In this document: positions 12,054-27,980 of the stretch, one piece after another
Numbering within the stretch: the first letter of the stretch is position 1
Layout: every line of letters starts with the position of its first letter
Origin: Paracoccaceae bacterium
GTDB taxonomy: Bacteria > Pseudomonadota > Alphaproteobacteria > Rhodobacterales > Rhodobacteraceae
Length of the DNA: 64,000 nucleotides
Direction: 5' to 3'
Assembly (NCBI GenBank): GCA_030750975.1
Contig: JASMHC010000017.1
Span: 1 to 64,000, forward strand
The notes under the pieces: generated by a model
The model's database searches: none
What the model saw: only the letters and a program-made list of their open reading frames with translations
What the model was told of the DNA's origin: nothing
Translations under genes and position numbers: made by a program

Positions 12054-12623
12054 ATGTCCTGGACCGATGAACGTGTCGAACTGCTGAAAAAAATGTGGGG
12101 CGAAGGCCAGTCGGCCAGCCAGATCGCCAAGGAACTGGGCGGCGTGACCCGTAACGCGGTGATCGGCAAGGTGCACCGTCTGGGCCTGTCGAACCGCAAT
12201 ACCGGCGGGGCTTCGGAACCGGCGGCCAAGGCGAAACCCGCCGAGAAATCCGCCAAGCCAAAACCGGCAGCCAAGGCGAAACCCGCAGAAAAGCCTGAGC
12301 CAAAGACCGAGGCCGCCGCCCCGGCCGAGGCGACCCCGATCCGCCGCCAGATCATTCCGGCGGGCCAGCCGCTGCCGCCACAGCCCTCGGCCAATGAAAT
12401 CAGCGCCGAGGCGCTTGCCAAGGTCAACGAGGTGGAAAAGAAGGCCAAGAAGCTGTCGCTGATGGAACTGACCGAGCGGACATGCAAATGGCCGGTTGGC
12501 GACCCTGCGACCGAAGAATTCTGGTTCTGCGGCCTGCCCGTGCAACAGGGGAAACCCTATTGCGAGGCACATGTGGGCGTGGCCTTTCAACCCATGAGCA
12601 GCCGCCGCGACCGACGCCGCTAA
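12054..12623 (+). CDS. gcrA: cell cycle regulator GcrA
   Basis: A 189-residue GcrA homologue. The N-terminal helix-turn-helix (SWTDERVELLKKMW through GKVHRLGLSNR, residues 2-47) and the C-terminal sigma70-binding part with TCKWPVGDP and a short Cys/His segment (FWFCGLPVQQGKPYCEAHV) are both present, joined by an Ala/Pro/Lys-rich linker. In Caulobacter, GcrA acts with RNA polymerase sigma70 at promoters carrying GANTC sites methylated by CcrM. Its presence implies that this organism uses CcrM-type adenine methylation, which matters for the DpnI homologue at 25434. A clear terminator follows. Confidence 0.95.
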   Translation: MSWTDERVELLKKMWGEGQSASQIAKELGGVTRNAVIGKVHRLGLSNRNTGGASEPAAKAKPAEKSAKPKPAAKAKPAEKPEPKTEAAAPAEATPIRRQIIPAGQPLPPQPSANEISAEALAKVNEVEKKAKKLSLMELTERTCKWPVGDPATEEFWFCGLPVQQGKPYCEAHVGVAFQPMSSRRDRRR

Positions 12624-16024: not shown

Positions 16025-16725
16025 GCGGCCGGCCCACAGGTCCCGCCGTCGCGGATTGGTCAAAGCCACCCCGGCCTGCCGATATCCACCTGCCCGGCCG
16101 GTTTTGCCGCATCGAGCCGTTGGGGCTGTCCCATGCGCCTGCCCTGTTTGAAGCGATCAAGGGGCAGGATTGGGTGTTCGACTATATGTACGAAGAGCCG
16201 TTTCAATCGCTTGCCGATTATCAGGCTTGGGTCGAAATGGTGAGCGCACGGCCGGACCCTTATTTCGTCGCCCTTTGCCGCCCTGATGGCACGCCGTTTG
16301 GCACCGCGTCATTCATGCGGATCACGCAGGCCCACGGGGTGATCGAGGTCGGCAATATCAACATCACGCCGAATGCTCAGCGCAGCACGGCTGTGACCGA
16401 AGCCATGTTTCTGATGATGGGGTGGGCCTTTGACAGTGGCTACAGGCGGTACGAATGGAAATGCAATGCGCTGAACGCCCCGTCCCGACGGGCCGCGCAG
16501 CGGTTCGGCTTCAGTTTCGAAGGGATTTTCCGCCGCCACATGATCGTCAAGGACCGCAACCGCGATACGGCGTGGTTTGCGATGGTGGAAGATGAATGGC
16601 CCGATTTGCGCCATGCCTATCAGACATGGCTATCGCCGGAAAACTTCTCCGCCGACGGTACGCAGCGTCAGCGGCTGGGTGCGCTGACCGCCCCGTATCT
16701 GGTTTCAACCGACCCGACCCTTTGA
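16021..16725 (+). CDS. GNAT family N-acetyltransferase
   Basis: A 234-residue acetyltransferase of the RimJ/RimL-like type. The N-terminal FCRIEPLGLSHAPALFEA, central NINITPNAQRSTAVTEAMFL and the acetyl-CoA/helix segment YRRYEWKCNALNAPSRRAAQ followed by RFGFSFEGIFRRHMIVKDR are diagnostic. These enzymes acetylate amino groups on proteins, antibiotics or small molecules; the substrate is not predictable. The ATG overlaps the stop of the upstream phosphatase-fold gene (ATGA), indicating one operon. A GC-rich palindrome follows the stop codon. Confidence 0.9.
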   Translation: MSGRPTGPAVADWSKPPRPADIHLPGRFCRIEPLGLSHAPALFEAIKGQDWVFDYMYEEPFQSLADYQAWVEMVSARPDPYFVALCRPDGTPFGTASFMRITQAHGVIEVGNINITPNAQRSTAVTEAMFLMMGWAFDSGYRRYEWKCNALNAPSRRAAQRFGFSFEGIFRRHMIVKDRNRDTAWFAMVEDEWPDLRHAYQTWLSPENFSADGTQRQRLGALTAPYLVSTDPTL

Positions 16726-16750
16726 TCGGGGGTAATTTGGCGGGTCTTGA

Positions 16751-16769
16751 AACCCCGCGCGGGGCTTTT
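16751..16769. terminator. GC-rich palindrome at the acetyltransferase/response-regulator junction
   Basis: The perfect 12-base palindrome CCCCGCGCGGGG is followed by CTTTT on the plus strand. It lies where two convergent genes end and may act in both directions. The stem is short, so confidence is moderate. Confidence 0.55.
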
Positions 16770-17470
16770 CAAATCGCCGGTGTTTCGGCAATCCGGTCGT
16801 CGATCAGCTGCGTCACCCACGACAGGTCAGGCGCGTCTGGGTTGGCCTTTTGCAAACGGGCAGCGGCCATTTCCAACCCGCTATCACCGGCCTGACGGGC
16901 GATGCCCGCCAGAAACAGCGAGGCGTATTTCAGGTTATGCCGATCCGGATCGCGGTGCAGGATTTCGGCGATATGGGCCAGATCATCCCGAAGCGATACC
17001 TGATCGGCATTAATCACCTCTTCGTTTACCATGCGCGGCCCGCCCGGCTGGCGATTGGGCGGCAGGTGGGCAAGGATGGCTTCCTGAAACACCGACAGGC
17101 TGTCATGCGGTTTGCCAAGAAACCCCTGCGCACCCGCCGCGATGGCCACGGGTTCGGCGAAATCATCGGCGCTGGTGGCCAGAATGACAGGCGGGTTCGG
17201 GGCATTCGCCACCTCGGCGATCAAGTCGCTGCCGTTTCCGTCAGGCAGGCCCAGATCAACCAGCATCACACACGGGCGATAGATCGCCAGATGCCGCCGC
17301 GCCGATGCAAGGCAATCCGCCCGCCGGATGCGGGCACCGCTGCGAAGGCACATCAGCCGCAGGGCTTCGCAGGCAAACCGGCTGTCTTCGACCACAAGAA
17401 CCGTGACGCCCAAAAGCGGTCGCATGGCCGTCGGGGCCGGGTACAGGGTGCTGCGGGCAAAGTCGTCCAT
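16769..17470 (-). CDS. response regulator with C-terminal helical domain
   Basis: A receiver domain (about residues 22-140 from this start) with the acidic pair in VEDSR, the phospho-acceptor Asp in MLVDLGLPDGNG, the Thr/Ser switch in LATSADD and the Lys in GFLGKPHD. The remaining 90 residues are helical with no DNA-binding motif, so this is probably a signalling or phosphotransfer component rather than a transcription factor. The ATG at 17470 is preferred because GGAGG lies just upstream; an in-frame ATG at 17485 would add five residues. No histidine kinase is adjacent. Confidence 0.8.
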   Translation of the reverse strand: MDDFARSTLYPAPTAMRPLLGVTVLVVEDSRFACEALRLMCLRSGARIRRADCLASARRHLAIYRPCVMLVDLGLPDGNGSDLIAEVANAPNPPVILATSADDFAEPVAIAAGAQGFLGKPHDSLSVFQEAILAHLPPNRQPGGPRMVNEEVINADQVSLRDDLAHIAEILHRDPDRHNLKYASLFLAGIARQAGDSGLEMAAARLQKANPDAPDLSWVTQLIDDRIAETPAI

Positions 17471-17622
17471 CTGATCCTCCGTCATGTCCGGTCTCGACTT
17501 TGAAGAGGTTTGCCTAACAGAAGGTTAAGCGATCAGCGCAAAAGCCCCCTGCGCTGCCCTGTCCACTTGCCGCGTCGCGGCAAAGCACGCATAAACGGCG
17601 CAAGCAAACAGGAGGACACATT

Positions 17623-18027
17623 ATGATCGGTCGTTTGAACCACGTCGCCATCGCCGTGCCGGATCTTGAGGCCGCCGCCGCGCAGTACCGCAACGCGCTG
17701 GGCGCCAAAGTCGGAGACCCGCAGGACGAACCGGACCACGGCGTGACCGTGATTTTCATCGAGCTGCCCAACACCAAGATCGAGCTGCTTTATCCGCTGG
17801 GTGACAACAGCCCGATCAACGGCTTTCTTGAAAAGAACCCGTCAGGCGGCATCCACCATGTCTGCTATGAAGTTGACGATATCATCGCCGCCCGCGACCA
17901 TCTGAAAGAAACCGGCGCCCGTGTTCTGGGCAGTGGCGAACCGAAGATCGGCGCCCATGGCAAGCCGGTTCTGTTCCTGCATCCGAAGGATTTCAACGGG
18001 TGCCTGGTAGAGCTTGAGCAAGTCTAA
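17623..18027 (+). CDS. mce: methylmalonyl-CoA epimerase
   Basis: A 134-residue protein of the vicinal-oxygen-chelate (glyoxalase) fold that interconverts the S and R forms of methylmalonyl-CoA in propionyl-CoA assimilation. The family motifs are clear: RLNHVAIAVPDLEAA with the first metal His, the IELLYPLGDNSPI segment, GGIHHVCYEVDD with the second His, and the C-terminal CLVELEQV with the metal Glu. Length is typical. The mutase chaperone MeaB is encoded 14 kb upstream. A DUF1467 gene follows at once, a pairing I associate with Rhodobacteraceae. Confidence 0.94.
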   Translation: MIGRLNHVAIAVPDLEAAAAQYRNALGAKVGDPQDEPDHGVTVIFIELPNTKIELLYPLGDNSPINGFLEKNPSGGIHHVCYEVDDIIAARDHLKETGARVLGSGEPKIGAHGKPVLFLHPKDFNGCLVELEQV

Positions 18028-18089
18028 GACTTGGACTTTCCCCGGACGGGTGCTACATCCGTCCTGTCTGATGCTTGAAAGGGTTATTT

Positions 18090-18356
18090 ATGGCAATCAC
18101 CTCGGCCATCGTGCTTTACGCAGTTATCTGGTTCATGCTGTTCCTGATGATCCTGCCCATGCGCCTGAAAACTCAGGGCGAAAGCGGTGTTGTCGTGCCG
18201 GGCACTCCGTCTTCATCGCCGGAAAACCCCGAGATCAGGAAAAAGGCGATTGTCACAACGCTGATCGCCTTTGTCCTTTGGGCGATTATCGCGTCGCTGA
18301 TCATTTTTGATATCGTCACCGCCAGAGATATCGACTGGCTGGGAATGATGAACTGA
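18090..18356 (+). CDS. DUF1467 family membrane protein
   Basis: An 88-residue protein with two membrane helices (residues about 5-24 and 52-75) and a loop containing MRLKTQGESG and PEIRKKAIVTT, as in DUF1467 proteins of alphaproteobacteria. Function unknown. The ATG at 18090 gives MAITSAIVLYAVIWF, the usual family start; a longer frame is unlikely. It follows mce by 62 bases and is probably co-transcribed with it. Confidence 0.85.
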   Translation: MAITSAIVLYAVIWFMLFLMILPMRLKTQGESGVVVPGTPSSSPENPEIRKKAIVTTLIAFVLWAIIASLIIFDIVTARDIDWLGMMN

Positions 18357-18371
18357 TCCACCGGCTGCGCC

Positions 18372-19064
18372 CTACCGGCGGGATGTGACCGCGTGGTAGA
18401 TATGGGTGAACGTCGCCGCCCCCAGAATCGGGATCACCAGATTGACGATCGGAATCGACAGCGGAATAGCCATCAGCGTTCCGGCAAACCAGATCGTCAG
18501 CCCGTGCTGTCTGCGCAGCTTTTTGGCCCCGTCCAGACCGACACGGCGCATGGCGGCCAGCTGGAAATATTCGCGCCCCAAAAGAAATCCGTTGAGCAGC
18601 CAGAATATGAGCGGTGCAAACGGCGGAAACAGGGCGTAAAAGAACAGCGCCAGCGTGTTGGCGGCAATCAGAACGCCCATGAAATTCACGCTGTCCTTCA
18701 ATCCGGTCCAGAACGGGATCGGCGGCACTTTGGCCAGATGGGGATAGTGTGCGTCTTCAACCGCGCTGGCCACATCCTCGAGAAACAACGAGGTGATGGC
18801 CGAGGCGACGGGGATCATCAGGAAGGTGGACAAAATCACCATCAGCAGAAAAGACGACCAGCTTAGCAGATCGTTCAGCCAGCGGACCTCGCCGACGAAC
18901 CAGAGCGAGACTTCGCCGTCAAAAAGCCAGCTGAGCAGCAAAAGGAAAGCGGCGTAGGCGGCGATCAGCAGGGCAAGGGTCAGCCCGACGCCAAGCATCA
19001 GGACACGGCGGAACCGTGGATCGCCCGTTTGGCCCAGCGCCTTGAAGAAGCTGGAAAAGATCAT
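18372..19064 (-). CDS. EI24 domain (CysZ-like) membrane protein
   Basis: A 230-residue inner-membrane protein with several hydrophobic segments and the EI24/CysZ signatures: GLKDSVNFMGVLIAANTLALFFYAL in the middle and LLNGFLLGREYFQLAAMRRV further on, where the RE-Y pattern is conserved. E. coli CysZ imports sulfate, but alphaproteobacterial members of this domain family are not firmly assigned, so sulfate transport is only a possibility. Its start overlaps the stop of the upstream nitroreductase gene by four bases, so the pair forms an operon. Confidence 0.82.
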   Translation of the reverse strand: MIFSSFFKALGQTGDPRFRRVLMLGVGLTLALLIAAYAAFLLLLSWLFDGEVSLWFVGEVRWLNDLLSWSSFLLMVILSTFLMIPVASAITSLFLEDVASAVEDAHYPHLAKVPPIPFWTGLKDSVNFMGVLIAANTLALFFYALFPPFAPLIFWLLNGFLLGREYFQLAAMRRVGLDGAKKLRRQHGLTIWFAGTLMAIPLSIPIVNLVIPILGAATFTHIYHAVTSRR

Positions 19065-19639
19065 TCGCTCACCCAGGTTGTGATCGCGGAAATGTCCGGG
19101 CGCGGCCGGTCTTTAGGCTCAGCTTTCGGGGTGCCGATATGCACGATACCCGCCACACGCTCGTCCTTTTCCATGCCCAGCACGGTCTGGCAGAATGTCG
19201 GGTCATGGCTGAACCAGCCGGACAACCAGTTTGCCCCCCAGCCCGACGCAAGGGCAGCGTTCAGCAGCGACAGGCACACAGCACCCGCGGTATAGACCTG
19301 TTCCGCCACCGGCACGCTGGCCTCGGGGCTTGCGCGGTCCACGACCACCACGGCCAGTTGGGCGTTCTCATAATGCGGCATCGGCTTGGCGATTTTTTCT
19401 TCTCCCACACCCAGACGCGCACCGGTTTCCTTGATGCCTTCGATCACACGCTCGATACCGGCGCGTTCCAATACGATAAAGCGATAGGGAACCACCGCCC
19501 CGTGATCCGGCGTACGGGCGGCGGCGGTCAGCATGATCTCAAGCGCGTCTCGCGACGGCACCGGGCCGGTCATCACCTTGGCCGGCACCGACCGGCGGGA
19601 GAGTAGAAAATCAAGGGCGGCTTGGTTGCGTGCGGGCAT
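19061..19639 (-). CDS. nitroreductase family protein (YdjA-like)
   Basis: A 192-residue FMN-dependent nitroreductase. The FMN-phosphate motif FLLSRRSVPAK lies near the N-terminus. The central AARTPDHGAVVPYRFIVLE and C-terminal GIVHIGTPKAEPKDRPRPD match the short YdjA branch, which lacks the longer helical insertions of NfsA/NfsB. These are flavin enzymes of uncertain physiological substrate. It is the first gene of a pair with the EI24 protein (ATGA overlap). Confidence 0.9.
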   Translation of the reverse strand: MPARNQAALDFLLSRRSVPAKVMTGPVPSRDALEIMLTAAARTPDHGAVVPYRFIVLERAGIERVIEGIKETGARLGVGEEKIAKPMPHYENAQLAVVVVDRASPEASVPVAEQVYTAGAVCLSLLNAALASGWGANWLSGWFSHDPTFCQTVLGMEKDERVAGIVHIGTPKAEPKDRPRPDISAITTWVSE

Positions 19640-19735
19640 TGGGGTCTCCGAAATCTGTTGGCTCTTTATGTGTTGGCTGCGTCAAGCCGGGTCAAGGCGT
19701 CAATGGCGAAACCGAAGGTCACAGGTGCCCGCAGG

Positions 19736-20836
19736 CTAAAGATCGGCGGCCAGATCCTCGATCCATTGGGTGACAAACGCATCAAAGGCCGGTCCCGGCT
19801 GGCGCTTGTTTGTGACCTCTTCCATCGGGTCAACCGCCCGAACCGGTGAACCGGCCATGGTTTCAATCACCGCATGACCGCAAAACGGGACGTGAACATC
19901 GGAATAGCCGCCTTCATGCACGACAACCAGACGTCCGTCACAAAGCCGGTCGGCGCTGTCCATCACCATTTGGGTCATTTGCCGGAAAGTGTCGGGCACG
20001 GCCATCATCCGGCCAAGCGGATCATAGATCGACGCATCATAGCCGCTGGCAACGACGATCACATCGGGCGCAAAATCATCCAGCGCAGGCAGCACCAGAC
20101 GCTCCATCGCTTCAAGATAGCCCCGATGGCCGGTGCCCGGTGGAAGCGGAATGTTCAGGTTAAAGCCTTCGCCCGCCCCTGCCCCGCGTTCGGTCGCATC
20201 GCCGGTATCGACCGGATAGTTGCGTTCCTGATGCAGGCTGATCGTCAGCACATCGTCGCGATCATAGAATATCGCCTCGGTCCCGTTGCCGTGATGCACG
20301 TCCCAATCCACCACCGCCACGCGCGAAACCAGCCCTTCGGCAAAGGCAGCTTCGACGGCAATGGCGATATTTGCCAGCAGGCAAAACCCGTTCGGCCAGT
20401 CCGGCAGACAGTGATGACCGGGCGGGCGGGACAGGGCATAGGCATTGTCGGCCTCGCCCAGAAGCACCGCCATCAGCGCCCCGCGTGCCAGACCCGCCGA
20501 TACGCAGGCGGTTTCGTACCCGCCTTTTCCGAAGGGAGTGCGCAAGCCCAGTTCGCCGCCGCCATCATCGGACATTGCCTTGAACCGGTTCAGAAAATCT
20601 GCCGGATGAACGCGCTCAAGCTCGACCCGTGTCGCGGGATCGGCCTGACGATATTCCAGCTCGGCGGCCAATCCGGTGACATCCAGCAAGGATTTCAAAC
20701 GCCGTTTCGCCTCGGGCGATTCCGGCAGACCCCCGGCCGACAGGGGCTGCACATGGCCGCCCAGAGGATAGGTCCCCGCATAGCCTTCACCTGCGTGCCA
20801 GAAACACCGCTCATCCCAGAAAAACGCTGTGGTCAT
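19736..20836 (-). CDS. histone-deacetylase-fold amidohydrolase
   Basis: A 366-residue protein of the class II histone deacetylase/acetylpolyamine amidohydrolase superfamily. Catalytic and zinc residues are visible in SRPPGHHCLPDWPNGFC, VVDWDVHHGNGTEAIFY, ISLHQERNYP and the later SGYDASIYDPLG. In bacteria such enzymes deacetylate small amines such as acetylpolyamines or act on protein acetyl-lysine; the true substrate is unknown here. The ATG at 20836 has an AGGAGAG ribosome site upstream. A small conserved gene lies just upstream on the same strand. Confidence 0.92.
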   Translation of the reverse strand: MTTAFFWDERCFWHAGEGYAGTYPLGGHVQPLSAGGLPESPEAKRRLKSLLDVTGLAAELEYRQADPATRVELERVHPADFLNRFKAMSDDGGGELGLRTPFGKGGYETACVSAGLARGALMAVLLGEADNAYALSRPPGHHCLPDWPNGFCLLANIAIAVEAAFAEGLVSRVAVVDWDVHHGNGTEAIFYDRDDVLTISLHQERNYPVDTGDATERGAGAGEGFNLNIPLPPGTGHRGYLEAMERLVLPALDDFAPDVIVVASGYDASIYDPLGRMMAVPDTFRQMTQMVMDSADRLCDGRLVVVHEGGYSDVHVPFCGHAVIETMAGSPVRAVDPMEEVTNKRQPGPAFDAFVTQWIEDLAADL

Positions 20837-20859
20837 GCTGGCTCTCCTGCCGATTGGGG

Positions 20860-21093
20860 TTAGACCTGTTTGATCCGGTACACCCCTTCGGGCAGATCCA
20901 GCGCCGCTGTCAGATCATCCAGCATGGCGATCGACAGGGTGATCTTGTGCGTCCGGTCGGTGCGCGGATCATATTGCTCGACCGTGATACACTCGGCAAA
21001 AGCGTTGATCACAATGTCTTCCTGAAGCGGTGCCTCACCTTCATCAACCAAGGTGATAACCGACGAGTCAAATTCGTGTTCGATGCTAAACAT
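20860..21093 (-). CDS. small hypothetical protein
   Basis: A 77-residue acidic protein (start MFSIEHEFDSSVITLVDEG) with no signal peptide, membrane segment or catalytic motif. Base composition matches the chromosome. It lies 23 bases upstream of the deacetylase-fold gene on the same strand, so it is probably co-transcribed. I recognise no function; the even hydrophobic spacing suggests a small folded beta-rich domain. Confidence 0.65.
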   Translation of the reverse strand: MFSIEHEFDSSVITLVDEGEAPLQEDIVINAFAECITVEQYDPRTDRTHKITLSIAMLDDLTAALDLPEGVYRIKQV

Positions 21094-21227
21094 GGGACCA
21101 GCTTATCCAAGCCCCATTCACAGGCAAGCCCTGTTCACAAGGGAAGGCCGATCATCCGGTTGATCTGAGTCATGGCGTTTTCGACCGTTCGCGCAGTACC
21201 TTTTCAGGCAAAAGCAGGGGATGTCAC

Positions 21228-21479
21228 ATGACCACAGATGACAGATACACAAAACACGCAAAGCTCGTTTCGAAGATGGCTGACAAGGTGGGGCTTGACC
21301 TGCTGGAAAAAATGCAACGCGGCGAGCTGGATTCCGAAGACCTGCGCATGATGGTGCATCGCTGCGAAGGCTGCACAGACCCTGAAGATTGCCGACACAA
21401 GCTGGAAAGCGGCCAGATCACGGAATCGCCGCCGGATTACTGCCGCAATGCGCCGATCTTCGAGGCGATGAAGGGCTGA
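21228..21479 (+). CDS. DUF6455 family protein
   Basis: An 83-residue protein with a helical N-terminus and the cysteine pattern CEGCTDPEDC, then YC near the end, typical of DUF6455, a small family common in Rhodobacteraceae. The spacing could allow metal binding or disulfides, but function is unknown. A second DUF6455 gene lies at 21996 with a YigZ/IMPACT-like gene between. All three run in the same direction. Confidence 0.82.
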   Translation: MTTDDRYTKHAKLVSKMADKVGLDLLEKMQRGELDSEDLRMMVHRCEGCTDPEDCRHKLESGQITESPPDYCRNAPIFEAMKG

Positions 21480-21572
21480 AACGTTTCGGCAAATTGGCGG
21501 GACGGCGAATTTGGGGGTTTGTGCCCGGCGCATCAGGTGCTAGTCGGGGTGTCCTGTGCAATTGGGCCGCTG

Positions 21573-21935
21573 ATGTATCAAATCGCTCATGTTCTGACCG
21601 ACCGCGGGTCGAAATACGCGGTTTCCGGCGGGCCGGTAAAAGACCGCGCCGATGCGGATGCGTTTGTAAAAACCCTTAAAAGATCCAAGAAATTCGCCAA
21701 GGCCACGCATAACACATGGGCGGTTATTCTGTCGGACGGAACCGTGCTGAAAAGCGACGACGGCGAAGCCGGTGCAGGCATGGTGATCGTGAATATTCTC
21801 AAACACGAAATGCTGACCGATCACATCGTGGTAGTGACCCGCTGGTATGGCGGAACCAAGCTGGGCGGAGACCGGTTCAGGCGGGTGAAGGATTGCGTGC
21901 GGGCCTATCTGGCCGAGTTTCACCGCGCCGTTTGA
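21573..21935 (+). CDS. YigZ/IMPACT N-terminal domain protein
   Basis: A 120-residue protein that corresponds to the UPF0029/IMPACT N-terminal domain alone. Signatures are THNTWAVILSDGTVLKSDDG, EAGAGMVIVNILK and VVVTRWYGGTKLGGDRFRRV. Full YigZ proteins are about 200 residues with a second C-terminal domain, absent here, so this is a short single-domain form. IMPACT relatives in eukaryotes regulate translation; the bacterial role is unclear. The ATG at 21573 gives a natural start (MYQIAHVL), although its ribosome site is weak. Confidence 0.78.
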   Translation: MYQIAHVLTDRGSKYAVSGGPVKDRADADAFVKTLKRSKKFAKATHNTWAVILSDGTVLKSDDGEAGAGMVIVNILKHEMLTDHIVVVTRWYGGTKLGGDRFRRVKDCVRAYLAEFHRAV

Positions 21936-21995
21936 CCCCAGTCAAGGCCGGTCAGGACCGAATCGCCTAGGGTCGGCTGGTGAAAGGGGAAACCG

Positions 21996-22253
21996 ATGAA
22001 GCCACTTGGCAATCAGATGAAGCGCTACTGGCGAGTCATTGGCATGGCCAATGCCGTGGGTGTCGATCTTGTGAAAGCGCATGAAACCGACCGTCTGACC
22101 GATCAGCAATGGGCCGGGATGGTTGAAAGTTGCCGCACCTGCCAGTGGGATGACGGATGCAAAGCCTTCCTTGCCCAAGCCGATGGCGACCAAAGCGTGC
22201 CCGCGGACTGCCTGAATGCCAAACGGTTCGAGGCTCTGCTGAAGACGACCTAA
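21996..22253 (+). CDS. DUF6455 family protein, second copy
   Basis: An 85-residue paralogue of the protein at 21228. It shares the overall plan: a helical N-terminus with VGVDLVKAHETDRLTDQQWA, then CRTCQWDDGC and a late Cys in VPADCLNAKRFEALL, which parallels YCRNAPIFEAM in the first copy. Function unknown. It is followed 59 bases later by diacylglycerol kinase on the same strand. Confidence 0.82.
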   Translation: MKPLGNQMKRYWRVIGMANAVGVDLVKAHETDRLTDQQWAGMVESCRTCQWDDGCKAFLAQADGDQSVPADCLNAKRFEALLKTT

Positions 22254-22312
22254 GCCCCCTTGCCCTTGCCATATATCCCCGCTTGACCGATCATCGGCCA
22301 AAAAGGGACGCA

Positions 22313-22669
22313 ATGCTTTATTTCCTGAAACGTCTGAAATACCGCTGCATCTGGAGCTGGCAGGGCATCATCGTCACCTGGCGCGAAGAGCATTCCTTTC
22401 GCTCGTGGGTCTGGGCCAACCTGGTCTCGGTCATCGCCGCCTTTGCCCTGCCGCTGACCTATGGGGATCGGGCGTTGATCCTTGCACTGGGGGTGCTGGT
22501 TCTTGCGGCTGAACTGATCAATACCGGTATCGAGAACGCGGTGGATTTTGTCTCGGAAAAGCAACATCCGCTGGCCAGAAAAGCCAAGGATGCCGGCAGT
22601 GCGGGCGTGGCCGTGACCGCCATCGCGGCGGGGATCGCCTGGATCGTGATCCTGATCGGGATCTTTTGA
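22313..22669 (+). CDS. dgkA: diacylglycerol kinase (DgkA type)
   Basis: A 118-residue integral membrane kinase with three transmembrane helices. The family signature ELINTGIENAVDFVSEKQHP, followed by LARKAKDAGSAGVAV, carries the catalytic and metal-binding acidic residues; EEHSFRSWVWAN is the typical first amphipathic part. DgkA recycles diacylglycerol to phosphatidate in the inner membrane, and some relatives phosphorylate undecaprenol. The ATG at 22313 gives the standard length. Its stop codon overlaps the ATG of the next gene (ATGA type junction). Confidence 0.93.
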   Translation: MLYFLKRLKYRCIWSWQGIIVTWREEHSFRSWVWANLVSVIAAFALPLTYGDRALILALGVLVLAAELINTGIENAVDFVSEKQHPLARKAKDAGSAGVAVTAIAAGIAWIVILIGIF

Positions 22670-23124
22670 TGCTTGATCTGGTGCATTTTGTTCACATCGC
22701 CGGAGCAACCGTCTTTGTCGGTTCGGTGGTTTTTTTTGATTGGGCGGTCGGCGGTGCTCTGGCCCGGATGACACCCGAAGCCCGCAAATCCGCCGCCCAC
22801 GCCATCCGGCCGTTCAGCGGCCCGATCATCATGGGATCGCTGGCCGTGACGTTGCTTGCGGGTATTGCGCGGCTTTTCCTGTCCGGCGCAGTGACCGGCT
22901 GGGCGGATCTGTTTTCCGGCTATGCCGGCCGCGCGATACTGGCGCTGGTGATCGTGATCGCATCCGAGGGGCTGGCCGCCCCTTTCCGCAAACACATGCG
23001 GGCGGGGATCGATACTCTGGACGACAGCGCCTTTTTGCTGTGGTGGAAACGGTATCGCAGCTTGAATGCGCTTGTTTTGGCAGCGGTGCTTTTGTTGATG
23101 GTGTCGATGCGGTTGGGGTGGTGA
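22669..23124 (+). CDS. CopD-like small integral membrane protein
   Basis: A 151-residue protein with four hydrophobic helices and conserved residues in VHFVHIAGATVFVGSVVFFDW, resembling the CopD/DUF2269-like membrane domain. In CopD the His residues are linked to copper; here only the first-helix histidines are evident, so a copper role is speculative. The ATG at 22669 overlaps the dgkA stop, so the two genes are translationally coupled. Confidence 0.72.
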   Translation: MLDLVHFVHIAGATVFVGSVVFFDWAVGGALARMTPEARKSAAHAIRPFSGPIIMGSLAVTLLAGIARLFLSGAVTGWADLFSGYAGRAILALVIVIASEGLAAPFRKHMRAGIDTLDDSAFLLWWKRYRSLNALVLAAVLLLMVSMRLGW

Positions 23125-23145
23125 CCCTTCACAGCAAGTGCGCAT

Positions 23146-23514
23146 TTACGACGGAGTCAGCGGGCAGCCCATAAGAATGGCCTGTTTTTCCAATGCGACC
23201 ATTTCGCCTCGTAATTGGGCAAGTTGGTCAGCGGTGTCTGCATTTCCACCCGTTAGGAAATAGACGGCTGGTCTGGACCAGACAGACGCGAGTGCTGCAA
23301 CCGACAATACTGCATCATTGGTGGCCAGCTTATCCTGCACCTTTGCCACTTCCTGTGCATCTGCACTCACGCGAGCAGCTTCCTGTTTCAACTGCGTGCA
23401 AGAATACGTCTGATAATTGTAAGTTGGCACGTAAAAAGGAGAAATGGACTCGGACCGCTCGGCGCAGGCAGCTAGGGCTACCACCGCCAGAAGCGCAAAC
23501 TTTGAAAAATTCAT
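23146..23514 (-). CDS. hypothetical lipoprotein
   Basis: A 122-residue protein with a clear lipoprotein signal: MNFSKFALLAVVALAAC, with the lipobox Cys at residue 17. The mature part has a conserved-looking TYNYQTYSCTQLKQEAARV and a short hydrophobic stretch (LSVAALASVWSRPAVYFL), then a coiled-coil-like heptad region (TADQLAQLRGEMVALEKQAI). The pattern is common among small proteobacterial lipoproteins of unknown function. Its promoter must lie in the AT-rich gap upstream. Confidence 0.75.
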   Translation of the reverse strand: MNFSKFALLAVVALAACAERSESISPFYVPTYNYQTYSCTQLKQEAARVSADAQEVAKVQDKLATNDAVLSVAALASVWSRPAVYFLTGGNADTADQLAQLRGEMVALEKQAILMGCPLTPS

Positions 23515-23901
23515 GAAGTATCACCTTTGGTTGTATTTTGGCGATATAAGGGCAGGCAAACAAGCGTGTCAATGTGAGAAACTATGATTTTCAGGGAGCA
23601 GCGAATTGGGGAAAATTCACTATTTATCAGATTGATACAATTACGATAACCAAATATCGAACTTATACCTAACGCCTGTTTGATTCGCTATAAGGTTGAA
23701 TACAAAATGATAATACGAAAGCTTGAAACTTCGCGTGCCATTGAATTTTCGCCGACGTACCCGGCAATATCGGCTGCAATTGCATGGTCCTCGGCCGGCA
23801 CTGGCCTTAGTGAGGGTGAATTTGAAACCTTCCGAAGTAGCAAGCATCAAATTTCACGTTTGAAAACTGAAACGTGCTGATTGAGCGGCAGGAATTTTGA
23901 T
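23515..23901. other. AT-rich intergenic region without a supported gene
   Basis: About 390 bases between the lipoprotein gene and the end of rimO, much richer in A and T than the surroundings. Short open frames on both strands (23680-23880 plus, 23641-23850 minus) have no recognisable domain, no good ribosome site and odd composition, so I do not call them genes. It probably holds the lipoprotein promoter. It could also be decayed foreign DNA. Confidence 0.5.
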
Positions 23902-25296
23902 TCAAATTTTTCGATTTTCGCTTTGGGTTTTCAGAACGCCCCAAAGGTCGTAATCCGAGGCCTCGTCCACCTCAACCTTCACCACATCCCCAACCGACAA
24001 CCCTTCGGTTCCCTCATCAATAAACAGGTTCCCGTCGATCTCGGGTGCGTCGGCCCATGTGCGGCACGAGGCGATCCCGTCTTCGTCGATGTCGTCCACG
24101 ATGACCTCTAACCGCTGACCAACCTTCGCCGCCAGTTTCGCCTCGGAAATCGCCTGCGCCTTCTCCATGAACCGTTCCCATCGGTCCTGTTTGACCTCTT
24201 CGGCCACGTGATCCGGCAGATCATTTGACCGTGCCCCATCGACGTTTTCGTATTTGAAACAGCCGACACGATCCAGCTGCGCCTCGTCCATCCAGTCCAG
24301 CAGGGTCTGAAACTCTTCCTCGGTCTCGCCGGGGTAGCCGACGATAAAGGTGCTGCGCAGCGTGATGTCAGGGCAATCGCTGCGCCATGCGGCGATTTCG
24401 TCCAGTGTTTTCGCCGCAGCCGCAGGGCGGGCCATGCGTTTGAGCGTATCGGGGTGGGCGTGCTGAAAGGGAATATCCAGATAGGGCAGGATCAGCCCTT
24501 CGGCCATCAGCGGGATCAGCTGGCGCACATGCGGATAGGGGTAGACATAATGCAGCCGCACCCAGGCCCCCAGCGACCCGAGATCGCGGGCAAGGTCGGT
24601 GATATGGGCGCGGTGCCCCCGCTCTTCGGCGTGTTTGATGTCAACGCCATATGCCGAGGTGTCCTGGCTGATCACCAGCAATTCCTTGACGCCATTGTCC
24701 ACCAGCTTTTCCGCCTCGCGCAGCACCGCATGGGCGGGGCGGCTGGCAAGGCGGCCGCGCATGTCGGGGATGATGCAGAACTTGCACTTGTGGTTACAGC
24801 CCTCGGAGATTTTCAGATAGCTGTAATGGCGCGGCGTCAGGCTGACCCCGCTGGCGGGCAGCAGATCGACATAAGGGTCGGGGCTGGGCGGCACGGCCCC
24901 GTGCACGGCATCCAGCACCTGTTCGTATTGATGCGGGCCGGTGACGGCGAGCACACGTGGATGCACACCGGTGATATAGTCAGGCTCGGCCCCCATGCAG
25001 CCGGTGACAATCACCTTGCCGTTTTCCTGCAACGCCTCGCCAATCGCCTCGAGGCTTTCGGCCTTGGCGCTATCGAGAAACCCGCAGGTGTTGACGATCA
25101 CCGCATCCGCGCCTTGGTAGTCGGGCGAGATGCCATAGCCCTCGGCCCGCAGCCTTGTGAGGATACGTTCGCTATCGACCAGGGCCTTCGGACAGCCAAG
25201 CGACACCATCCCGATGGTCGGCTGACCCGCACGGATGGATTCAGAGACACGGGCTCGTGCAAGGTCGGGGCGGAGGTCTGGCGGGTTCTGGCTCAT
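23902..25296 (-). CDS. rimO: ribosomal protein S12 methylthiotransferase RimO
   Basis: A 464-residue radical SAM enzyme that adds a methylthio group to the conserved aspartate of ribosomal protein S12. The N-terminal MTTase domain has the cluster-binding cysteines ([30 protein letters not shown]). The radical SAM motif [11 protein letters not shown] and the C-terminal TRAM domain follow. The start at 25296 ([12 protein letters not shown]) is chosen because the longer frame to 25503 runs into AT-rich sequence upstream, unlike the family. It is divergent from the DpnI-like gene. Confidence 0.94.
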
Positions 25297-25433
25297 GGGG
25301 TGGGCGTATAGAGGAAGGTGGTGGGGTGGGGAAGAGCCACTAAAAAATGTGGCTGCTTCCAATTCGCCATGTGTCGCAGTTGAATAGGTCTGGATGACGC
25401 CATTCCGAAAGGTCGGACAAATGAAGTTGGAAT

Positions 25434-26186
25434 TTGGAACCCGCGCAAACGGAAATAAAAAGTGAAAGCCAAAAGGCACGCATTTTGACCGAGGCATGGG
25501 CATCTAACTGGTTGTTTTGTCCCGAGTGTGGGCACTTTGAGCTTTCCCAATTTAAGGCCAACAGACCAGTTGCTGATTTCTTCTGCCCGTCTTGCTTTTC
25601 TCAATACGAACTCAAGAGCCAGAAAAAGCCGTTTGGCGGTAAAATTGTGAATGGTGCATATGCAACGAAAATCGAGCGATTAAATTCGGATACGTCACCT
25701 AACCTAATTCTCATGCATTACGACGCAGATGCGTTGCGGGTGGTGAATCTTACAGCCATTCCAAAACGCTATTTTGTTATGGAAATCGTCGAAAGGAGAA
25801 AACCGTTGGCTGCAACTGCCCGTCGCGCAGGCTGGGTTGGTTCAAACATTTTAATCGGGCGTTTACCAGAATCTGCAAGAGTCCAAATTGTCAGCAACGG
25901 CGTCGTCAGACTTAAGAGCGATGTAATTAGGGAATGGGAAAGAAACAGGTTCGTGGCAGAACAACCTCAGAAATCACGTGGCTGGTTACTCGATGTTTTG
26001 CGTTGCGTTGAGAATATAGGACAATCTGAGTTCACAATTGCACAAGTTTACGAGTTCGAAGGGGAGCTTTCTGGGCTTTACCCAAACAATTCGAATATTC
26101 GTGCCAAGATTCGTCAGCAACTCCAAGTGCTACGAGACAAAGGACAAATAGAGTTTATCGGCGGTGGGGTATACCGCCGCATTTGA
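25434..26186 (+). CDS. DpnI-like methyl-directed type IIM restriction endonuclease
   Basis: A 250-residue protein strongly similar from end to end to DpnI, which cleaves GATC only when the adenine is methylated. Shared blocks are QKARILTE, the zinc-site pairs CPEC (29-32) and CPSC (51-54), and the PD-(D/E)XK core with Asp48 in RPVADFFC and Glu59-x-Lys61 in [21 protein letters not shown] and the C-terminal winged helix ([17 protein letters not shown]) also match. All expected catalytic residues are present. The only in-frame start is TTG at 25434. An ATG at 25421 with a good AAAGG site encodes a more DpnI-like N-terminus ([13 protein letters not shown]) but is out of frame by one base at an A5 tract (25457-25461). 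The gene is AT-rich against its neighbours and no Dam-type methylase is adjacent, fitting a transferred defence gene. Confidence 0.9.
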
Positions 26187-26204: not shown

Positions 26205-27980
26205 TCACTCCTGCGCCACCACCCGCAGTGACAGTTCCATCAGCTGGTCCGAGGTTGGATCGCTGGGGGCGTTCATCATCAGGTCTTCGGCGCGCTGGTT
26301 CATTGGGAACATCATCACTTCGCGGATGTTCGCCTCGTCCGCCAGCAGCATCACGATGCGGTCGATACCGGCCGCGCAGCCGCCGTGCGGGGGGGCGCCG
26401 TAGTGGAAGGCGTTGAACAGGGCGCCGAAGCGGGATTTCACCTCGTCTTCGCCATAGCCTGCCAGTTCAAACGCTTTCAGCATCAGGTCGGGCTTGTGGT
26501 TGCGGATCGCGCCGGACACCAGTTCGTAGCCGTTACAGGCAAGGTCGTACTGATAGCCCAGAACCTCTAACGGGTCGCCGTTCAGCGCGTCCAATCCGCC
26601 CTGAGGCATCGAAAACGGGTTGTGTTCAAAGTCGATCTTGCCGGTTTCGTCATCTTTCTCGTAGATCGGGAAATCAACGATCCAGGCAAAGGCGAACCGG
26701 TCTTTGTCGGTCAGGTTCAGCTGCTCGCCAATCTCGGTGCGGGCACGGCCTGCCACAGCCTCGAACGCTTTCGGCTTGCCGCCAAGGAAGAAAGCCGCGT
26801 CGCCTTTGCCAAGGCCCAATTGCTGGCGGATCGCCTCGGTGCGCTCAGGCCCGATGTTTTTGGCCAAGGGGCCGGCGGCCTCCATGCCATTTTCACCGTC
26901 GCGCCAGAAGATATAACCCATACCGGGCAGGCCCTCTTTCTGCGCGAATGCGTTCATGCGGTCGCAGAATTTGCGGCTGCCGCCGCCCGGCGCGGGGATG
27001 GCGCGGATTTCGGTGCCGTCCTGCTCCAACAGCTTGGCGAAGATCGCAAAGCCCGAGCCGCGGAAATGGTCGCTAACGATCTGCATCTTGATCGGATTGC
27101 GCAGGTCGGGTTTGTCGGTGCCGTACCACAGGGCTGCGTCTTTATACGAGATCTGCGGCCAGTGTTTATCCACCGGACGACCACCGCCGAATTCCTCGAA
27201 CACGCCTTCGATGACCGGCTGGATGGTGTCGAACACGTCTTGCTGTTCGACAAAGCTCATCTCAAGGTCAAGTTGGTAGAAATCGGTGGGTGAACGATCA
27301 GCACGGGGGTCTTCGTCGCGGAAGCAGGGTGCGATCTGGAAATACTTGTCATAGCCCGAGACCATGATCAGCTGTTTGAATTGCTGCGGCGCCTGCGGCA
27401 GCGCGTAGAATTTACCCGGATGCAGGCGCGACGGGACAAGGAAGTCACGTGCCCCTTCCGGCGACGAGGCGGTGATGATCGGCGTCTGGTATTCGCGGAA
27501 GTCCAAATCCCACATGCGCTTGCGCATCGAGGCCACGACATCCGAGCGCAGCTTCATGTTGTCCTGCATCGCTTCGCGGCGCAGATCGAGATAGCGGTAC
27601 TTGAGGCGGGTTTCCTCGGGGTATTCCTGATCACCAAAGACGATCAGCGGCAATTCTTCGGCAGCGCCCAGCACTTCCATGTCGCGGATGAACACCTCGA
27701 TCTCGCCGGTGGGCAGCTTGGGGTTGATCAGCTCGGGGTCCCGCGCTTTGACGTTGCCGTCAATGCGGATGCACCATTCCGAGCGGACCTTTTCCACCTC
27801 GTTGAACACCGGGCTGTCGGGATCGCACAGAACTTGCGTCACGCCGAAATGGTCGCGCAGGTCGATGAACAGAACTCCGCCGTGGTCACGGATACGGTGA
27901 ACCCAACCCGACAGGCGAACGGTGTCGCCGACATTGTCTTTGGTCAGAGCGGCGCAGGTGTGGCTGCGATAGGCGTGCAT
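26205..27980 (-). CDS. aspS: aspartyl-tRNA synthetase
   Basis: A 591-residue class II aminoacyl-tRNA synthetase of the bacterial type. The N-terminal OB-fold anticodon domain ([20 protein letters not shown]), motif 2 ([20 protein letters not shown]), the bacterial GAD insertion domain and the C-terminal motif 3 ([20 protein letters not shown]) are present, ending in the family tail [15 protein letters not shown]. It charges tRNA-Asp; whether it also charges tRNA-Asn cannot be decided from this window. The ATG at 27980 fits the family start. It converges with the DpnI-like gene. Confidence 0.96.

Follow-up and report, generated by a model that had tools for sequence, protein, structure and literature searches.

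A full-length DpnI homologue with a displaced start codon beside aspS in a CcrM-type Paracoccaceae genome

Background

How did a gene for a DpnI-type, methyl-directed endonuclease come to lie between rimO and aspS in an alphaproteobacterium, and can it still supply its host with a restriction enzyme? DpnI is a standard laboratory enzyme and is treated as a single-protein system; an earlier note on this locus had described the gene as a single-gene island and a compact stand-alone defence. We analysed the window (the whole stretch of 64,000 nucleotides in which the gene lies), its host genome (3.19 Mb, draft in 22 contigs), and relatives of the gene in other bacteria.

Results and discussion

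The open reading frame encodes a complete DpnI-type body

A 250-aa open reading frame, opening on TTG, was confirmed at 25434–26186 (+), and by homology it is a true full-length DpnI relative, a chance match being excluded. As anticipated in the earlier note, Pfam returned both domains at full length (DpnI, PF06044, E=3e-62; DpnI_C, PF17726, E=9e-30), with the PD-(D/E)XK domain at residues 6–176 and the winged helix at 181–248. The protein aligns with PDB entries 4esj/4kyw across residues 8–250 (E=7e-68) and matches the PADLOC model mREase_II for methyl-directed type II enzymes (E=3e-88), while a search of NCBIfam gave no match. In the alignment the catalytic residues D48/E59/K61 correspond to D53/E64/K66 of DpnI, and the methyl pocket of the catalytic domain is also kept (L125/R131/W134/G136, corresponding to DpnI L129/R135/W138/G140; the roles of D53, K66, L129, R135, W138, and G140 are described in PMC4117772). 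Four zinc cysteines (C29, C32, C51, and C54) are present. The claim of a match to DpnI throughout, with zinc cysteines, catalytic residues, and a winged helix, therefore agrees with Pfam, PDB, PADLOC, and the individual residues, and the enzyme is probably specific for GmATC. The gene is AT-rich, as had been remarked, with a GC content of 46.2% vs 58.8% for the window. The open reading frame itself contains zero GATC sites, while the window carries ~9 per kb.

The host genome fits an enzyme that cuts GmATC

A defence enzyme directed at GmATC fits the host setting because CcrM and GcrA are present and a D12 methylase is absent. The gcrA gene, for the CcrM-dependent cell-cycle regulator, lies at 12054–12620 (+; PF07750, E=7e-49), and a ccrM gene, with N6_N4_Mtase (PF01555) and RAMA domains, was found in the genome beside rnhB, which bears out the presence of CcrM predicted from gcrA. 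No D12 (Dam-type) methylase (PF02086) was found in the 3.19 Mb of the host genome, and no methylase gene adjoins dpnI, as had been reported. The broader claim that the host must lack Dam-type methylation stands as far as D12 genes are concerned but is left uncertain by three more N6_N4-type methylases, two of them with a ParB-like N-terminal part (by eye); GmATC made by any of the three would contradict the defence model. An ApT is a target of DpnI only when each of its adenines is methylated, the enzyme binding the two closely spaced methyl groups (PMC4117772), and we reason that GANTC methylation does not create such a site. Avoidance of GATC by the host was rejected, the count in the window (592 observed vs 541 expected) being above expectation.

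The methylated DNA need not be gammaproteobacterial, as had been supposed, because D12 methylases occur in 87/394 genomes of the same family, a count of genes over the cut-off irrespective of methylase specificity; closer sources may exist. Neither of the two other dpnI-carrying genomes of the family has a D12 methylase, whereas some dpnI carriers outside the family do, so that a genome with dpnI need not be free of D12.

The conserved start codon is one base out of frame

In 13/13 alphaproteobacterial relatives an ATG, followed by a codon for Lys, Arg or Glu, leads to a Ser/Ala/Thr-Gln pair after exactly 15 codons. The corresponding ATG of the window (at 25421, opening the frame MKLEF..., 25421–25465, +) has a Shine-Dalgarno-like GAAAGG at 25407–25412 (+), 8 nt on its 5' side, and lies 46 nt from the Ser-Gln codon, compared with 45 nt in all 13 relatives; because of this spacing it is one base out of frame with the body and meets a stop after 14 codons. 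An in-frame ATG 15 codons ahead of Ser-Gln is absent from the gene. The codon that is in frame with the body is the TTG at 25434, 13 nt past the ATG and some five codons into the conserved frame. In DpnI the residues preceding helix 16–31 are described as unstructured except for one helical turn (PMC4117772), so a protein initiated at this TTG could remain able to fold and to cleave DNA, and loss of the first five residues may be tolerable. The displaced start may also mean that no protein is made. Promoter and terminator scans returned nothing.

Could the shift be an error of sequencing or assembly, in an ordinary and intact dpnI? The draft state of the genome (22 contigs) and the normal look of the body and ribosome site would allow this, but the stretch 25421–25466 is without a long homopolymer, its longest run being five A, and we consider an error unlikely.

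The rimO side of the locus is an inversion junction

The aspS gene (26205–27980, −) is convergent with dpnI across a gap of 18 nt, and rimO (23902–25296, −) is divergent from it. Relatives free of dpnI have carB followed by aspS and then by a block equivalent to 16.3–25.3 kb of the window, with rimO last. In the window this ~9 kb block (16300–25300, approximate) is inverted and ends between rimO and dpnI, just upstream of the latter, and it is because of this inversion that rimO faces dpnI. The genome G154, from another genus, has its dpnI convergent with aspS in the same place and orientation, with a gene for a zinc-ribbon protein upstream, the cassette being set between aspS and the uninverted block. 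Taken together with the synteny of dpnI-free relatives, this indicates that dpnI occupies a site at aspS shared with another genus and that its rimO side is an inversion junction. The shared site can reflect either descent or repeated use of the same site. The notion of a single-gene island between rimO and aspS has to be given up, as the rimO junction is a product of the inversion and relatives carry a two-gene cassette. Inversion through long repeats at the junction was considered and dropped, no convincing pair being found.

Elsewhere, an ettA-like ABC-F gene is close to six dpnI copies in Hyphomicrobiales, and a uvrB-like gene to three in Bradyrhizobium (gene names assigned by eye). These sites resemble cassettes with conserved flanks, such as Neisseria drg beside leuS (PMC4269198).

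A zinc-ribbon gene recurs beside alphaproteobacterial dpnI

Within the host family, dpnI was found in 3/395 sampled genomes (the window genome, G118, and G154). Class-wide, 385 genomes yielded one complete match (the window itself), one fragment at a contig end, and a few distant partial matches. In the tree the window protein groups with those of G154, G118, and a Defluviimonas copy (support 90/86), on a long branch of 0.70. Carriage by phages or plasmids was not borne out, as phage records, viral contigs, and alphaproteobacterial plasmids held no full-length relative; phage matches cover the winged helix alone.

At 13/13 other alphaproteobacterial loci examined (L008–L018, G118, and G154), dpnI has beside it on the same strand, on its upstream or its downstream side depending on the locus, a gene for a ~95-residue protein with the pattern W..N.Y.C..C...W..EWSC.CDDECP.C. 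These loci are not independent, because a single search for close relatives of the window DpnI supplied eleven of them, which have common ancestry. Among the 395 family genomes, strong matches to the zinc-ribbon protein occur in G118 and G154 only, both of them dpnI carriers with the two genes adjacent, and G098 has one weak, partial match; the class-wide 385 genomes gave one partial match, in a genome with no listed dpnI. The gene is absent from the window and from the whole host genome, and a search for a remnant in the window was fruitless, the tblastn matches being dpnI's own zinc motif or noise.

The zinc-ribbon protein matched no Pfam family over the cut-off, and its predicted fold (pLDDT 85) had no significant match in the PDB. 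The motif itself is spread more widely than its linkage to dpnI, since phage contigs and plasmids of Methylomonas that lack dpnI encode relatives of it. Viral contigs L084–L092 encode proteins with a WSCxCDDECPxC zinc motif, dpnI not being nearby. At three Patescibacteria loci (L019, L021, and L030) the gene of a different small cysteine-rich protein lies just downstream of dpnI.

The linkage suggests that the zinc-ribbon protein is an accessory factor of DpnI. A bolder proposal, which we hold to be somewhat doubtful, is that alphaproteobacterial dpnI normally belongs to a two-gene system, its partner being this protein, which would assist, guide or restrain the nuclease; the window would then show a natural partner-less derivative. 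The literature searched held no mention of an accessory factor for DpnI, and nothing relevant was found that links DpnI to Rhodobacter or to zinc ribbons. A specific neighbour that recurs across alphaproteobacterial families, and so a possible accessory factor, is in our opinion the part of this work most worth following and a more novel lead than dpnI; the window genome offers a natural case without that neighbour.

Ordinary constraint on the protein body makes any loss recent

With its start displaced and the neighbouring zinc-ribbon gene missing, whether the window DpnI is currently active is uncertain, and for the same two causes the description of a compact, working defence goes beyond what the sequence supports. 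One explanation is that dpnI was freshly inactivated, the displaced start having abolished expression and the open body representing young decay. This would agree with a conserved ATG and ribosome site that lead into an early stop, with the absence of the partner gene, and with an internal TAA in the dpnI of G154 (L062 8608–9400) at the same aspS site. Against it stand the in-frame TTG close to the ATG, the 250 codons of the window gene, which contain no lesion besides the start, and an ordinary level of constraint. When each sequence of the alphaproteobacterial set was left out in turn, the window protein was found to alter 2/70 otherwise invariant positions, compared with 0–4 for the other relatives. 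Relative-rate tests against the family's three other DpnI proteins were flat, and those against L018 with some outgroups showed the window protein to be faster; on the ordinary invariant-position count and the flat tests within the family, we see no relaxed constraint on the body. With a body free of other lesions and under apparently normal constraint, any loss of dpnI is therefore recent. Fresh inactivation is a serious possibility, to which we give somewhat less than even odds. In two MAGs (L041 and L042) dpnI is broken by stops or frame changes.

A probable laterally acquired cassette reduced to one gene

The reading we prefer, at a probability of roughly 0.7, is that of a laterally acquired DpnI-type gene whose cassette settled at the 3' end of aspS and which then lost its partner and had its start slip while the body stayed intact. 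Homology, key residues, gene content, synteny, and the displaced start are direct observations; on them we base a probable GmATC specificity, cassette ancestry, order of events, and weak expression. The gene would have entered by lateral transfer, most likely in a two-gene cassette with the zinc-ribbon gene. Events in this lineage would then have comprised an inversion with one end immediately on the upstream side of dpnI, loss of the zinc-ribbon gene, and a shift of the start by one base out of frame. As the body stayed intact, translation from the TTG at 25434 could still yield a shortened but complete enzyme, probably at a low level. Such an enzyme, if produced, would bind and cut GATC with both adenines N6-methylated, so that phage, plasmid or donor DNA bearing Dam methylation would be destroyed, and host DNA, with CcrM-type GANTC marks and unmethylated GATC, would be spared. 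Methyl-directed restriction would thus be present in a CcrM/GANTC lineage and could cut plasmids that had been grown in Dam+ E. coli.

A role outside defence, for instance in regulation that responds to methylation, which has been proposed for gonococcal Drg, whose disruption alters viability and biofilm (PMC4269198), seems to us very improbable here, given that every nuclease residue is kept and that GmATC to be sensed is not expected in this host.

Comparison with known systems

The window gene is a further example of an already-known kind of enzyme, in a CcrM-type host without a Dam-type gene. It resembles R.DpnI of Streptococcus pneumoniae (4esj, 4kyw) in both domains, the catalytic triad, zinc cysteines, methyl pocket, and lack of a linked methylase, and differs in its displaced start, its alphaproteobacterial host with CcrM, and its position outside a dpnI/dpnII exchangeable locus. 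With Drg/NmeBII, the "dam-replacing gene" of Neisseria (PMC4269198), it shares the nature of an AT-rich dpnI homologue beside an aminoacyl-tRNA synthetase gene (leuS in Neisseria, aspS in the window) in a host without Dam. Unlike at drg, however, no dam remnant is seen in the window, the flanks are aspS and rimO, and cleavage, which has been shown for Drg, is a prediction for the window enzyme. Two Parcubacteria records (L030 and L031; ~5.1–6.0 kb) have a truncated Dam-type methylase gene directly before dpnI, apparently an independent "dam-replacing" event like that of Neisseria. The alphaproteobacterial pairs of dpnI and zinc-ribbon genes (L008–L018, G118, and G154) have the neighbour and an in-frame ATG, and the window neither; they nevertheless supply the closest DpnI proteins to that of the window and, in G154, a cassette at the same aspS site.
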